Positions 3,073 to 47,919 of a stretch of DNA of 64,000 nucleotides are shown one piece after another. Positions within the stretch are counted from its first letter, which is position 1. Each line of letters opens with the position of its first letter. The translations under genes were made by a program, and so were the position numbers. The DNA comes from Alphaproteobacteria bacterium (lineage in GTDB: Bacteria; Pseudomonadota; Alphaproteobacteria; Micavibrionales; Micavibrionaceae), in the NCBI GenBank assembly GCA_018608245.1, contig JABAZY010000052.1, positions 3,624 through 67,623 on the forward strand, written 5' to 3'. The notes under the pieces are model-generated. The model was not told where the DNA came from and ran no database searches. It worked only from the letters and a program-made list of their open reading frames with translations.

Positions 3073-3444
3073 ATGAGTGACTTTAAGATAGGTCAAGCTG
3101 TTGTAATTAAAGAAACAGGCGCGAAAGGTTCCGTTGTTGACTTGGAAAATGGCGCTCCTGTTGTTGATTATGATGGTGCGAGCGTTCCAGAAATGATGTG
3201 CGATGATGAACTGGTTCCTGATGTTTTATATAATGCGGGTGATACAGTTATAGTGACCTTTTCAAAGCCAGTGAATGGCGTGACCAAAACAGAAGGAACG
3301 GTTCTGGGTGTAGATGGAGAGTTTAGGACGGTTTCTTATGTGGATTCATTCGGACCAGTAGAAACGACACAAAAGGTTGGTGCCTTTAAACCAGCACCTA
3401 CATCAGCCGGTGACGGACCGAGTGTTGTCAGTGCCGTTGCTTAA
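3073..3444 (+). CDS. Hypothetical protein, 123 aa, beta-rich with an SH3/KOW-like N-terminus
   Basis: The start has an excellent AGGAGGG site. The opening FKIGQAVVIKETGAKGSVVDL and the later YNAGDTVIVTFSK resemble two copies of a small beta-barrel motif of the KOW/SH3 kind (IGQ.V/AGD.V followed by a Gly turn), but this is a visual impression, not a family assignment. There is no signal peptide. The gene is the last of the ppa-linked set and is followed by a strong hairpin terminator. Confidence 0.6.
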   Translation: MSDFKIGQAVVIKETGAKGSVVDLENGAPVVDYDGASVPEMMCDDELVPDVLYNAGDTVIVTFSKPVNGVTKTEGTVLGVDGEFRTVSYVDSFGPVETTQKVGAFKPAPTSAGDGPSVVSAVA

Positions 3445-24913: not shown

Positions 24914-26347
24914 ATGAGTATTGACCAGCAGATTGACGAAGCTTTTAAGCCGATTGCCAAGGCAATATCGGACACTATTTTCTATGCGGAACCTATTACA
25001 GGCTATGACATTAAGCTGATTTTGGTTTGGCTAGTCCTTATCTCGTTGTTCCTTACTATATATTTGGGATTTATAAACCTTCGCTATTTCAAGCATTCTA
25101 TCAATATCCTGCGTGGTAAATACGATAAAAAGAATGATAAAGGTCAGATTAATCGTTTTCAAGCTTTAGCAACCTCGTTGTCAGGCACGGTTGGTTTGGG
25201 GAATATTGGTGGCGTCGCTGTAGCGGTGTCTACTGGTGGCCCTGGAGCGTTATTCTGGATGGCGATGATGGGTTTGTTTGGGATGAGTGCCAAGTTCGCG
25301 GAAGCGGCTCTTGGGGTTAAATACAGGGTTATTGCCGATGATGGGCAGGTCTCTGGTGGGCCAATGTATTATATCAAGGCCGCGTTTGAGAATATTGGTA
25401 TGGCTAAAATGGGTGCGTTTTTCGCCTTTCTATTTGCTGTTTGTATTGTTGGTGGAGCTGTAGGGGCAGGAAACATGTTCCAGTCTAATCAGGCGTTTCA
25501 ACAAGTTTTAAATGTAACGGGTGGCGAAGAGAGCGTGCTTGCGGGCAAAGGTTGGATGTTTGGTATCTTCTTGGCGGTTTTGGTCGGTGCCGTGATTATC
25601 GGTGGGCTGAAATCTATCGCAGCTGCGGCATCTAAAATTGTGCCCCTGATGGGAGCCATATATTTAGTGGCTGGATTAGTGGTTATTGCGATGAATGCAT
25701 CGGCTATTCCTGCTGGGTTTGCGACTATCTTTGAAACAGCTTTAACGCCAGAGGCTGGTTTTGGGGCTGTGTTGGGGGCGTTGCTTATTGGAGTTCAACG
25801 GGCGGCGTTTTCTAATGAGGCTGGTATTGGGTCTGCGGCTATTCCACATTCTGCTGCGAAAACTAACGATCATGTGTCTCAGGGCTTTGTTGCTATGCTG
25901 GGGCCGTTCATTGACACAATCGTCATCTGTATGGTGACAGGCTTGGTTATTGTGATGAGCGGTGTATATGAGGGTAGTGACGGCATGGAAGGGGTGACAT
26001 TAACCTCCAGCGCCTTTGAATCTGCTATACCTTGGTTCCCTTATGTCTTAACGCTGACGGTATTCTTGTTTGCTTTTTCAACGATGATTGCTTGGTTTTA
26101 TTACGGGCTTAAGGGGCTTCAGTATTTGGTTGGTAACTGTAAGTTTTCAGAGAATGCTTATAAGATCGCGTTTTGTTTATTTATCATTGTTGGGGCATCA
26201 ACGAAGCTTGGGTCTATTATAGATTTCTCTGATGCGATGATATTCGCGATGGCTATTCCGAATGTTTTAGCATTGTATTTATTAGCACCAGAGTTAAAGT
26301 TAGATATTAAAAAATATCTGCAAAACATTGATAAGATTAAGAAATAA
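24914..26347 (+). CDS. Alanine/glycine:cation symporter (AGCS family)
   Basis: A secondary transporter that imports alanine or glycine with Na+ or H+. The 477-aa product has about 10-11 membrane segments and the family motifs LSGTVGLGNIGGVAVAV and GGPGALFWMAMMGLFGMSAKFAE (at about 92-130), with GVQRAAFSNEAGIGSAAIPH near 295-315. GGGAG precedes the ATG. It appears monocistronic: a terminator lies upstream and an intergenic region rich in regulatory motifs downstream. Na+ versus H+ coupling cannot be read from the sequence. Confidence 0.94.
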   Translation: MSIDQQIDEAFKPIAKAISDTIFYAEPITGYDIKLILVWLVLISLFLTIYLGFINLRYFKHSINILRGKYDKKNDKGQINRFQALATSLSGTVGLGNIGGVAVAVSTGGPGALFWMAMMGLFGMSAKFAEAALGVKYRVIADDGQVSGGPMYYIKAAFENIGMAKMGAFFAFLFAVCIVGGAVGAGNMFQSNQAFQQVLNVTGGEESVLAGKGWMFGIFLAVLVGAVIIGGLKSIAAAASKIVPLMGAIYLVAGLVVIAMNASAIPAGFATIFETALTPEAGFGAVLGALLIGVQRAAFSNEAGIGSAAIPHSAAKTNDHVSQGFVAMLGPFIDTIVICMVTGLVIVMSGVYEGSDGMEGVTLTSSAFESAIPWFPYVLTLTVFLFAFSTMIAWFYYGLKGLQYLVGNCKFSENAYKIAFCLFIIVGASTKLGSIIDFSDAMIFAMAIPNVLALYLLAPELKLDIKKYLQNIDKIKK

Positions 26348-26533
26348 GTGTTTCTGTTAAGTTTAAAAATACCATATACGCTACGTTTTATTTTATCCAC
26401 AGGTTAAGACCTGCTTAAAGCCCTATAAAGTCTCAATAAATGAGCAAATTTGAGCTGTACTTGTGGATATGTGGATAAGTGCTTTTATATAGCGCTTGTC
26501 TAGGACGTTGCGCCTGCGCATAGTCATATTATT
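26348..26533. other. Intergenic region with clustered DnaA boxes and a CtrA-type motif (candidate replication origin or cell-cycle control region)
   Basis: The 186 bp between the symporter and the large membrane protein gene contain no ORF. They hold a perfect DnaA box TTATCCACA (26393-26401), a perfect reverse box TGTGGATAA (26470-26478) and a one-mismatch reverse box TGTGGATAT (26462-26470) abutting it. Between them is TTAA-N7-TTAA (26404-26418). The first 50 bp (26346-26395) are AT-rich, as expected of an unwinding element. Alphaproteobacterial origins known from Caulobacter combine DnaA and CtrA sites. The region is short for an origin; it could instead regulate the downstream gene. Confidence 0.4.
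26404..26418 (+). promoter_or_regulatory. CtrA-type binding motif
   Basis: TTAA (26404-26407), seven bases, TTAA (26415-26418): this matches the TTAA-N7-TTAA consensus of the alphaproteobacterial master regulator CtrA. It lies three bases after a perfect DnaA box and about 115 bp before the 26534 start codon. The motif is palindromic and AT-rich, so chance occurrence is possible; the company of DnaA boxes raises the interest. Confidence 0.45.
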
Positions 26534-28399
26534 ATGATAAATTCTATAAAAGATAAGCTGTTAAGTGGCGGTAAACGCACGAAAAAATCACGCCTTAAAC
26601 GTGATATTAACAGTGTACCTTTTACGTCTGGCGATAAACCTGCCGAAAAAGACGACCATATTTCAATTCCTGATAGTTCTACGGGTGGTTTAGGTAATAT
26701 CCGTATCATCTCAGAACCTAATCGTGATCAGCATATGCAAAGTGATGAAGAGTTTCTACGTGAGCTTGAAAAAGAGATGGAAGCAGAAGAGCGCTTAGAA
26801 GCTCAATTGGCAGAAGAGTTAGATAAACGCATTACACATCAAGCAAGGCGCTTAGCTCAATTAAAAGCGGAGCCCGAGCCAGAAGGATATGATGAGGAAG
26901 AGTTGGTGCTGGGCGAGGAAGTAGAGCCTGAAGAAGATAATATGGCGTTTCCTTTCCATGAGGAAGAAGTTGCCAAGGAGCAAAAACAATATAAACAAGA
27001 AACCAAGGCGAGTGAAAAAACGCTAGAGCAGAGCAGGTTAGCGGATCGTAAGCGCCGTAAAATGTTAATGCTGATTGCGATTACGTTTAGCGCGATATGG
27101 CTAGGATTAGCGATTGGGTATTATGCGCGTTCATACTCTGAATGGGGTTTAATCTTTAGCACGCCGCCGCATATTGTAGGGATATTTTTAGCAGGTTTAT
27201 TGGCGCCAATTGTCCTTTGTTGGTACTTATTGGGCTTATTTAGACCAAGAAGACGCGAAAATCGCGAAAATATTGCTTATAATCATGATTTTCAACCGCA
27301 TGACTTCCCATCTCGTGAGAATTTGTATCTATTTCACAAGGATATTGAGCGTTTTTGTGTTCAGGGGGCTGAGCTGGCTGCTTATTCAAAAGCAATGGCG
27401 CAGACCATCCCTGATGCACGAGAGCGTCTAAAAGAAGATGTACGTATGTTCTTGGAGTTCTCTGACAAGACAGCAGAATCGGTTAATACCCTAACGACTT
27501 TACTTGCTGAGCGTTCTGAGCGTTTCATGGAAGTGATTAATGAGATTGAAGAACGAACAACGAGCCTAAATGCTGAAATGCATGAAGGTATCAAGGAAAC
27601 TTACGAAGAGGCCAAGGAACTATCTGAGCAAATAGGCGGGATAGCGACCGATATTCGTCATATTCAAGGAGCATCGCAGGAGCTTCACGTTGATATCAAG
27701 GCCGCCAATAAGGAGCTATCGTCTGAGGCAGATCGTATTGCTGATGTGTCGTTGAAGGCCTCTAAGGTTATTCAACAGGCTTCTGGCTCGTTTGCACTTC
27801 AATCCGGTGCGTTGATTAAGGCGATGGATGAAGTGAAGGATTATAGCCAAGGGCTGGATCAAAATATTAGCGCGGCTGCAGCTTCTGGCGGGCGTAGTTT
27901 CCGTGAAGAAATGCGTGCGCCTGCACAAATTCCACCAGTTGAGCGCCGTAAGGCTTTTTCGGTCCCATTACCTACATCTGTGCCGAACCCGATGACATCA
28001 CCTAACAATATGCCTGTAAATGCTAATAGCGGTTCGCAATATTCTATCGATGGATTGCATGCAATCTCAATAGATTTAACACGTTCTGTTGATGGACAGG
28101 TGCGGGAGAGTATTTGGGAGTTATACCAAAATGGCGACCGTGAAGCCTTCACGCAATATCTATTGAGTGTTGAGGATAAGGTTTTAAACGCTAAAACATT
28201 CAAGATTTACAAAAATAATGCAGATTTCAGAGGGTATGTATCGCGCTATATACAACAGTTTGAAACGCTTTATGAGGAATTATATGAGGAAGCTGATCGC
28301 AATGATCGCGGGGCATTATTCCCATCTTTAATCCTGAATAGTAATTTAGGGCGTCTATACAAGATACTGTGCCGTTTATCTGGACATCCTGCGCTTTAG
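26534..28399 (+). CDS. Large membrane-anchored coiled-coil protein, possible cell-pole or morphology factor
   Basis: A 621-aa protein in four parts: a basic then acidic N-terminal region (1-165) with a coiled coil at about 68-110; two membrane helices (about 177-197 and 212-236) bounded by KRRK and RPRRR clusters; a long coiled-coil region (about 255-440) with heptad-like patterns; and a C-terminal domain after a Pro/Ser/Asn linker (about 490-621), including FTQYLLSVEDKVLNAKTF and FRGYVSRYIQQFE. From memory, that last domain resembles the C-terminal helical domain of large alphaproteobacterial polar or growth-associated membrane proteins. The start has no Shine-Dalgarno sequence. Confidence 0.75.
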   Translation: MINSIKDKLLSGGKRTKKSRLKRDINSVPFTSGDKPAEKDDHISIPDSSTGGLGNIRIISEPNRDQHMQSDEEFLRELEKEMEAEERLEAQLAEELDKRITHQARRLAQLKAEPEPEGYDEEELVLGEEVEPEEDNMAFPFHEEEVAKEQKQYKQETKASEKTLEQSRLADRKRRKMLMLIAITFSAIWLGLAIGYYARSYSEWGLIFSTPPHIVGIFLAGLLAPIVLCWYLLGLFRPRRRENRENIAYNHDFQPHDFPSRENLYLFHKDIERFCVQGAELAAYSKAMAQTIPDARERLKEDVRMFLEFSDKTAESVNTLTTLLAERSERFMEVINEIEERTTSLNAEMHEGIKETYEEAKELSEQIGGIATDIRHIQGASQELHVDIKAANKELSSEADRIADVSLKASKVIQQASGSFALQSGALIKAMDEVKDYSQGLDQNISAAAASGGRSFREEMRAPAQIPPVERRKAFSVPLPTSVPNPMTSPNNMPVNANSGSQYSIDGLHAISIDLTRSVDGQVRESIWELYQNGDREAFTQYLLSVEDKVLNAKTFKIYKNNADFRGYVSRYIQQFETLYEELYEEADRNDRGALFPSLILNSNLGRLYKILCRLSGHPAL

Positions 28400-34543: not shown

Positions 34544-35032
34544 ATGGCAAAAAAAGATAAAATATTAGCGTTGAAAGATATTCCAAGAGATCAAGTTCCA
34601 AAAAACTGCCGTTTAATGGGATTGGATTTGGGCACAAAGACGATTGGTGTGGCTATTAGTGACTCGATGCAGTCTATAGCAACACCTGTAACAACAGTTG
34701 AGCGGTCAAAGTTTTCTAAGGACATTGAGGCGCTAAGTAAGATTATTCAGGAATTTGAAGTAGGGGGCTATATTTTGGGGCTTCCGCTCAATATGGATGG
34801 CACAGAAGGGGCGCGCTGTGACGCCACGCGTTCATTCGCCGATGAAATGCGCCAGCGCCCCGAAGTGTTTGGTGATAAGCCGTTCATAGCCCTGTGGGAT
34901 GAGCGTTTATCCACAGCTGCTGTGGATGATTTCCTGATAAACACTGTGGATATGTCTAGAACAAAGCGCAAACAGGTGGTTGATAAGCTTGCGGCGCAGT
35001 TGATCTTGCAGGGGGGCTTGGATTATATCTAG
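34544..35032 (+). CDS. ruvX: Putative Holliday junction resolvase / pre-16S rRNA nuclease
   Basis: A RuvX/YqgF-family RNase-H-like nuclease, implicated in processing of pre-16S rRNA 5' ends. The 162-aa product has the first catalytic Asp in MGLDLGTKTIGVAI (about 28), the GLPLNMDGTEG loop and the ALWDERLSTAAV motif with further acidic residues; VDKLAAQLILQ ends the fold. The 4-bp overlap with the convergent methyltransferase gene at the 3' end is a normal tail-to-tail layout. Confidence 0.92.
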   Translation: MAKKDKILALKDIPRDQVPKNCRLMGLDLGTKTIGVAISDSMQSIATPVTTVERSKFSKDIEALSKIIQEFEVGGYILGLPLNMDGTEGARCDATRSFADEMRQRPEVFGDKPFIALWDERLSTAAVDDFLINTVDMSRTKRKQVVDKLAAQLILQGGLDYI

Positions 35033-46815: not shown

Positions 46816-47919
46816 ATGCGTACTTTAGCCTTACAATCCATGCCTAAACCGTTATTCGCCTTCATGCTGCTAACCATTGTATTTGGTGGTGGTCTTTCTG
46901 GCTGTTCCGAAACGCGTTATGCCGCGCATATGGTAAAACAAATTCCTATGGGGCAAGATAAAGCAGCGAAAAGCGTTGGTTATTTTAAGGTTGGTAGTCC
47001 ATATAACATTAAGGGGCGTAAATATTACCCAAAAGAAACTTATGGTGGTGTAGAAACAGGCACGGCTTCTTGGTATGGCCCAGGATTTCATGGCAAAATG
47101 ACAGCCAATGGAGAAACGTTTGATAGAAACGATCTGACAGCTGCCCATAGAACTCTTCAAATACCAAGCGTTATTAAAGTAACTAATTTGAGCAATGGTC
47201 GTTCAATAATCTTACGTGTTAATGATCGTGGGCCATTTGCGCATGATCGAGTCTTAGATGTGTCGGAACGTGCTGCAAGTTTGCTTGGGTTTAAAAACCA
47301 AGGTACGGCCAAAGTACGCATTGAGGTCATGACAGACGCCAGCAAAGTTGTTGCCAATGCTGCTAAGCAGGGTAAAGACACGCGCGGTTATGCCGTGGCG
47401 CTTAACCAGAACAAAACACATCATTTAGATCAACCATCTATTATCACGCCACCACCAACACCAGAAGTAAAAATGGCGAGTGCGCAAAGCGTTCAAAATG
47501 CACAGCGTGTGGCGCAAGTACAACCTGCAACAGGCGCACCTCAACAAATATATTACAAACCTGAGCCAGTTCAGCGCGTTGTTCTATCGCCTGAGATGCC
47601 AACTCAAACATCGCCAGCTCCTGTGGAAAAGGTTGTGAATAATGTCGTGGATAATCAAAAGGTGTCAAAATTTGTACCGTCCGTTCCAGCAGGTAAAATA
47701 TTTGTTCAAGCTGGTGCATTTTCTGAGGAGCAAAATGCGTTAGCCTTTAGCCGTACATTATCATCTTATGGACCATCAAAGGTTTATATGACACGTGTTG
47801 ATAATAAGCCATTTTATCGCGTACGTTTAGGACCATATGAAGATTCTGCGAAAGCATCCGAAGCTGTTTTGGCGCTTAACAATAGTGGTAAGGCAAACGC
47901 TGTTTTAATTGTTGATTGA
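46816..47919 (+). CDS. rlpA: RlpA septal lytic transglycosylase lipoprotein with SPOR domain
   Basis: A lipoprotein that cleaves denuded glycan strands at the septum. The 367-aa product has a lipobox (GGGLSGC, modified Cys 30), a double-psi beta barrel with TASWYGPGFHGKMTANGE, RNDLTAAHRTLQIPS and RVNDRGPFAHDRVLDVSE (about 77-155), a Gln/Pro/Val-rich linker (about 190-290) and a C-terminal SPOR domain (about 295-367, FVQAGAFSEEQNALAFSRTL, VRLGPYEDSAKASEAV). The SPOR domain binds septal peptidoglycan. Followed by dacA, usual in Alphaproteobacteria. Confidence 0.95.
   Translation: MRTLALQSMPKPLFAFMLLTIVFGGGLSGCSETRYAAHMVKQIPMGQDKAAKSVGYFKVGSPYNIKGRKYYPKETYGGVETGTASWYGPGFHGKMTANGETFDRNDLTAAHRTLQIPSVIKVTNLSNGRSIILRVNDRGPFAHDRVLDVSERAASLLGFKNQGTAKVRIEVMTDASKVVANAAKQGKDTRGYAVALNQNKTHHLDQPSIITPPPTPEVKMASAQSVQNAQRVAQVQPATGAPQQIYYKPEPVQRVVLSPEMPTQTSPAPVEKVVNNVVDNQKVSKFVPSVPAGKIFVQAGAFSEEQNALAFSRTLSSYGPSKVYMTRVDNKPFYRVRLGPYEDSAKASEAVLALNNSGKANAVLIVD

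Follow-up and report, generated by a model that had tools for sequence, protein, structure and literature searches.

Conserved DnaA boxes upstream of a TipN/GPR-like gene on the terminus side of a Micavibrionaceae chromosome

The intergenic region and its flanking genes

The stretch of DNA analysed here (the window) is 64,000 nucleotides long and comprises bases 3624-67623 of contig 20 in a 2.02-Mb, 72-contig genome of the family Micavibrionaceae. Within it, a 186-bp intergenic region (26348-26533; 64% A+T) separates a sodium:alanine symporter gene from a gene encoding a protein of 621 aa. The sequence elements named for this region in the original prediction were all located (Table 1): two perfect DnaA boxes in opposite orientation, a third box with one mismatch that has base 26470 in common with the exact minus-strand box, a TTAA-N7-TTAA motif, and about 50 bp of A+T-rich DNA, the 50-bp steps from 26340 and 26360 reaching 74% and 72% A+T, respectively. 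When the 186-bp region was subjected to 20,000 first-order Markov shuffles, at least one exact DnaA box appeared in 0.1% of the shuffles and two in none, while TTAA-N7-TTAA arose in 3.1%; chance is excluded for the DnaA boxes and is not excluded for the TTAA-N7-TTAA motif. Exact DnaA boxes number 25 across the 2.02-Mb genome, no more than the 27 matches to a reversed control pattern, so that genome-wide box density means little, and it is the pairing of the boxes in the intergenic region and their conservation that count. With one mismatch allowed, the window as a whole holds 33 boxes, an enrichment relative to 18.4 +/- 3.9. No sigma-70-like promoter was found between 26300 and 26700 in a scan using a consensus that alphaproteobacterial promoters may not fit.

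Table 1. Features of the intergenic region, its neighbours and related box arrangements (window coordinates unless a locus is named)
Feature	Position	Strand	Remark
Sodium:alanine symporter gene (PF01235)	24914..26347	+	upstream of intergenic region
A+T-rich stretch	26348..26392	.	symporter end of intergenic region
DnaA box, exact TTATCCACA (upstream box)	26393..26401	+	upstream plus-strand box recurrent in many relatives
TTAA-N7-TTAA, CtrA-like, TTAAGACCTGCTTAA	26404..26418	.	not conserved, probably incidental
DnaA box, one mismatch, ATATCCACA	26462..26470	-	69 bp after plus-strand box
DnaA box, exact TTATCCACA	26470..26478	-	8-bp step from preceding minus-strand box
Downstream gene, 621 aa	26534..28399	+	charged N terminus, two putative transmembrane helices, coiled coil, conserved C-terminal domain
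Conserved C-terminal domain of 621-aa protein	28031..28396	+	in 105 of 289 sampled Alphaproteobacteria
ruvX	34544..35032		
ruvX box I, exact TTATCCACA, codons L-S-T	34907..34915	+	DARS-like
ruvX box II, TCATCCACA	34921..34929	-	offset +14
ruvX box, ATATCCACA	34945..34953	-	offset +38; +26 box of relatives lost here
Inverted pair TTATCCACA-N2-TGTGGATAA	L141 5698-5717; L140 9531-9550		

The 621-aa protein matched no family above the cut-off in Pfam or NCBIfam. In most relatives, homologues of 1,000-1,400 aa are encoded after the same symporter gene. A charged N terminus and a hydrophobic pair are followed in the proteins of relatives by a long coiled coil and then by a C-terminal domain of ~120 aa that is conserved; the hydrophobic pair and the helical region were read directly from the sequences, and the coiled coil of the 621-aa protein is short. 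Across the sampled Alphaproteobacteria, the ORFs carrying the C-terminal domain range from ~350 to 2,750 aa, mostly 650 to 2,100 aa, and a homologue is also found in Micavibrio sp. UBA6147. GPR is described as similar to TipN (PMC8546619) and as having two N-terminal transmembrane domains (PMC8262873). The 621-aa protein looks like a short member of a TipN/GPR-like polar organiser family, a name based on architecture and homologue lengths. The earlier guess of a polar-type membrane protein is supported by architecture, since the putative pair of N-terminal transmembrane helices, the long coiled coil and the conserved domain at the C terminus match TipN and GPR; a polar role for the protein would be by analogy.

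Position on the chromosome

Two perfect boxes with an overlapping third, flanked by A+T-rich DNA and a CtrA-like motif, had led to the suggestion that the intergenic region is the chromosomal oriC, with the GC-skew minimum expected at this place. What adjoins the locus is a skew maximum. On contig 20 the GC skew is positive up to ~55 kb of the window and negative after it, so that the cumulative skew peaks there. The same proximity was seen in three relatives, for which skew was sampled in 20-kb stretches: the downstream gene lies at 1.12 Mb in G031, with the skew switch between 1.146 and 1.230 Mb; at 1.65 Mb in G033, with the switch between 1.55 and 1.625 Mb; and at 585 kb of contig 1 in G009, with the switch between 626 and 640 kb. 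A dif-like sequence, TGATGTGATAATRTATATTATG, which we take to be dif from its likeness to that of E. coli, is present at window coordinate 85144 (beyond the window, on contig 20), at 1,239,538 in G031 and at 1,542,038 in G033, which is 59 kb, 118 kb and ~110 kb from the locus, respectively. The copy at window coordinate 85144 (locus L152; contig 20, ~88767; TGATGTGATAATATATATTATGTAAATT) has its matches in G031 and G033 near their skew maxima.

None of the origin-linked genes hemE, rho, mnmE, gidA, parAB or dnaA adjoins the intergenic region and, as the original prediction had stated, hemE and dnaA are outside the window (contig 22 and contig 70, respectively). In the complete genome of G031 the skew minimum falls at the contig junction, which has hemE, hemH, rho, mnmE and gidA to one side of it and, across from them, aroE, coaE and dnaQ, these gene names having been assigned from translations; TTAA-N7-TTAA adjoins this hemE locus. 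On contig 22 of the present genome, hemE adjoins an A+T-rich intergenic region (L156, ~1230-1650), in which several imperfect DnaA boxes were seen, and a gene resembling its G031 counterpart. The true origin is likely to be at this hemE locus. G031, in addition, has no boxes at the locus homologous to the intergenic region. An origin at the latter is for practical purposes ruled out by the skew, the dif-like site at 59-121 kb in the three genomes where one was located, and the separate hemE locus, and the oriC call is corrected to a regulatory locus on the terminus side. The distance from the downstream gene to hemE amounts to 42-46% of the chromosome in the single-contig genomes G031, G033 and G081, and to 16-43% (mean ~34%) in seven single-contig genomes of other families, for which several lengths were rounded; in those families, the position of the gene on the far side from hemE is a tendency and no rule.

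Conservation of the boxes and their probable role

Regions of 260 bp upstream of the gene were scored in 80 genomes of the Micavibrio order. A search for the box pattern in relatives had been proposed as a check. With a single mismatch tolerated, one or more boxes are present in 58 of the 80 regions, compared with 5.2 in shuffles (largest value 9), and 37 exact boxes occur in 32 of the genomes, compared with 0.2, these being counts from related genomes and not independent events. Among 1182 other genes of the order, 21 (1.8%) have an exact box upstream and 92 (7.8%) a box with up to one mismatch. The upstream neighbour is a gene other than the symporter in 18 genomes, and boxes are kept in 10 of these, so the boxes track the downstream gene. 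Within the order, the pattern was seen again in families f1, f2 and f7. Boxes are absent from 22 of the 80 genomes, four of which (G002, G004, G005 and G007) belong to the same genus as the present one. Of the 26 homologues from outside the order, only 3 have a box, so that DnaA control is not general for the protein family.

Spacings from plus- to minus-strand boxes are mostly 59-78 bp, with 24 and 35 bp also seen; the commonest are 59, 65-66, 69-70 and 77-78 bp. The present genome has spacings of 69 and 77 bp, of which 69 bp is the commonest in the order (5 cases). Gene starts were set at the most upstream ATG, and box-to-start distances are therefore approximate. G001, G009 and G034 also have the overlapping double box ahead of this gene, in each case with one mismatch. 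Of 60 one-mismatch boxes, 24 are changed at position 5, which is the N of TTATNCACA, compared with 40 of 386 in the background. The DnaA consensus is TTATnCACA (PMC5742627), and the boxes show DnaA-type degeneracy.

Several further motifs were seen in the course of these comparisons. In 12 of 40 cases a GANTC site (CcrM type) lies no more than 12 bp beyond the minus-strand box, a count given without a background rate; the upstream regions concerned are those of G001, G008, G037, G042, G043, G047, G049, G052, G092, G107, G110 and G146, and the present genome is not among them. The present genome and G009 share an inverted pair, TTATCCACA-N2-TGTGGATAA, in the interval that separates a response-regulator gene from its neighbour. 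Five relatives have pairs of DnaA boxes or single boxes in the interval from rnhA to a gene whose product is small (~140-170 aa, no function assigned) (L145, L146, L143, L082 and L104).

The intergenic region probably serves the downstream gene, which encodes the TipN/GPR-like putative polar organiser, as a DnaA-responsive control region. DnaA would bind the upstream box and one or two opposed boxes ~60-75 bp nearer the gene, and its binding would tie transcription of the polar organiser to the DnaA cycle, as at the Caulobacter ftsZ, gcrA and mipZ promoters; a promoter would presumably lie close by, and control could take the form of either activation or repression. In Caulobacter, DnaA directly activates gcrA and mipZ, with one box each, ftsZ, with two, and hdaA, with up to six (PMC3193534). 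Exact boxes upstream of ftsZ in eight relatives (G009, G012, G026, G028, G061, G064, G087 and G099), together with the DnaA (contig 70) and GcrA encoded by the present genome, are other signs of DnaA control in the order. These ftsZ upstream boxes often form a tandem TTATCCACTTATCCACA (L144, L040, L044, L046, L051-L053 and L118). No report of DnaA control of tipN was found in the literature searched.

Other roles for the boxes were weighed against this one. Their target could be DnaA itself and not the gene, in which case they would form a datA- or DARS-like site for titration or nucleotide exchange whose intergenic position near the terminus is fortuitous. The boxes are opposed, and a separate DARS-like array is present in ruvX 8.4 kb away, both of which would suit such a site; however, the range of plus-to-minus spacings in the order differs from the 0/+14/+26 of the E. 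coli DARS core, and the boxes stay with the downstream gene when its neighbourhood changes. We consider a DnaA-directed site unlikely, and a DARS core at this site was rejected, the offsets being +69 and +77 instead of +14 and +26. The opposed boxes are also partly complementary as RNA and lie between co-directional genes, as might be found in a hairpin such as a terminator or attenuator of the symporter transcript. Such a hairpin would have a loop of ~50-70 nt, and no terminator-like site was found on the plus strand of the region. In at least 10 genomes, moreover, the two boxes are unlike at position 5, the second reading TTATTCACA or TTATACACA and the first TTATCCACA, a difference that breaks the pairing and keeps the DnaA consensus, and no compensatory changes between the opposed boxes were seen across relatives. 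An RNA hairpin is thus highly improbable and was discarded.

The original prediction had also allowed for a cell-cycle promoter combining DnaA and CtrA sites. Its DnaA part is supported, since boxes recur ahead of this gene in different genera and families of the order. Its CtrA part is not supported, the motif being found, among the 80 upstream regions, in the present genome only. CtrA binding at TTAA-N7-TTAA between the boxes would be in keeping with the perfect match of the motif and its distance of 2 bp from the plus-strand box, and the motif might have arisen in this species alone, a species that also has no GANTC of the kind seen by the minus-strand box in some relatives. Against this stand the absence of the motif from all other scored regions and the frequency with which shuffling of the region produces it. 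Joint control by DnaA and CtrA is accordingly improbable and was set aside for lack of conservation; most likely, the motif is incidental or a species-particular change.

The ruvX array and comparison with known systems

The DARS-like array in ruvX has boxes at offsets 0, +14 and +38 and is the only one of such layout in the window. Relatives of the family show offsets of 0, +14, +26 and +38 within codons L-S-T ... V-D, with boxes at these four positions in 29, 19, 15 and 27 of 29 family ruvX genes, respectively. At least three of the four boxes are present in 24 of the 29 genes, whereas recoding with synonymous codons at background usage yields 0.29, an approximate expectation since the codon usage came from two genomes of the genus and the genes are related. 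Outside the family, 0 of 9 ruvX genes have three or more of the four boxes. The two-box pattern TTATNCACA-N5-TGTGGA was matched in 61 of 382 genomes, compared with two control matches, and 22 of the 23 family loci read were in ruvX. Two further arrangements were noted. Contig 12 of the present genome (111573-111592, minus strand; L335) has an array of 0, +14, a weak +26 and +38 in an unrelated dehydrogenase-like gene, with codons L-S-T..V-D..V-D..V-E as in ruvX, and an RlpA-like gene in the window (47622-47654) has three minus-strand DnaA boxes in 12-bp steps with no plus-strand box before them.

In the DARS elements of E. coli, according to a review, boxes II and III have the orientation opposite to that of box I, and the spacing is equal in DARS1 and DARS2 (PMC5742627). 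Our measurements place the boxes of the DARS1 core (bioD-uvrB region) at 608 (+), 622 (-) and 634 (-) and those of the DARS2 core (near mutH) at 3136 (+), 3150 (-) and 3162 (-), that is, 0, +14 and +26 in both. In orientation and spacing the ruvX array resembles the E. coli cores, the window copy at +14 but not at +26, and it is a candidate DnaA-recharging element. DARS-like sequences have been described in many proteobacteria according to a review (PMC10380432); in the literature searched, no report was found of a DARS within a gene or in Alphaproteobacteria. If functional, the ruvX array would be a DARS-type recharging site hidden in a protein-coding gene of an alphaproteobacterium.

The upstream boxes suggest a role of DnaA in regulating transcription in the Micavibrio order, on whose cell cycle almost nothing was found in the literature searched, and the resemblance of the target to a pole organiser makes a link between replication state and cell polarity testable. 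That the terminus carries a two-part DnaA switch, made up of the DARS-like array in the ruvX codons and the DnaA-controlled promoter of the TipN/GPR-like organiser, is a speculation that we regard as doubtful; if it were true, late replication would couple the end of a round to DnaA recharging and to marking of the new pole.

Compared with known systems, the ruvX arrays of many relatives have one plus-strand box and opposed minus-strand boxes at +14 and +26, as in E. coli DARS1 and DARS2. They differ in lying within coding sequence and in having, in most cases, a fourth box at +38, and the copy in the window lacks the +26 box. A Caulobacter-type origin at hemE shares with the intergenic region its DnaA-like boxes and, in G031, the TTAA-N7-TTAA motif; it is nevertheless a separate locus outside the window, at the skew minimum in G031 and on contig 22 in the present genome. 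TipN of Caulobacter and GPR of Agrobacterium have two N-terminal transmembrane helices followed by a long helical or coiled-coil part, which the hydrophobic pair and helical region of the downstream protein family resemble, and their lengths of 882 and 2,115 aa (PMC13170164) fall within the ~700-2,700 aa spanned by homologues across the class. The 621-aa protein is short in comparison, with most of the coiled coil gone, and is likened to them by architecture. The closest parallel to the proposed DnaA-responsive region may be the ftsZ, gcrA, mipZ and hdaA promoters of Caulobacter crescentus, likewise an alphaproteobacterium with GcrA, where a gene of the cell cycle or of polarity, remote from oriC, also has one to several boxes in its upstream region, and the box upstream of ftsZ is common to several relatives of the present genome. 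From these promoters the intergenic region differs in its target, a TipN/GPR-like gene, and in its boxes, which have opposite orientations at spacings of 59-78 bp and include an overlapping tandem, and at which DnaA is a candidate for binding and activation.
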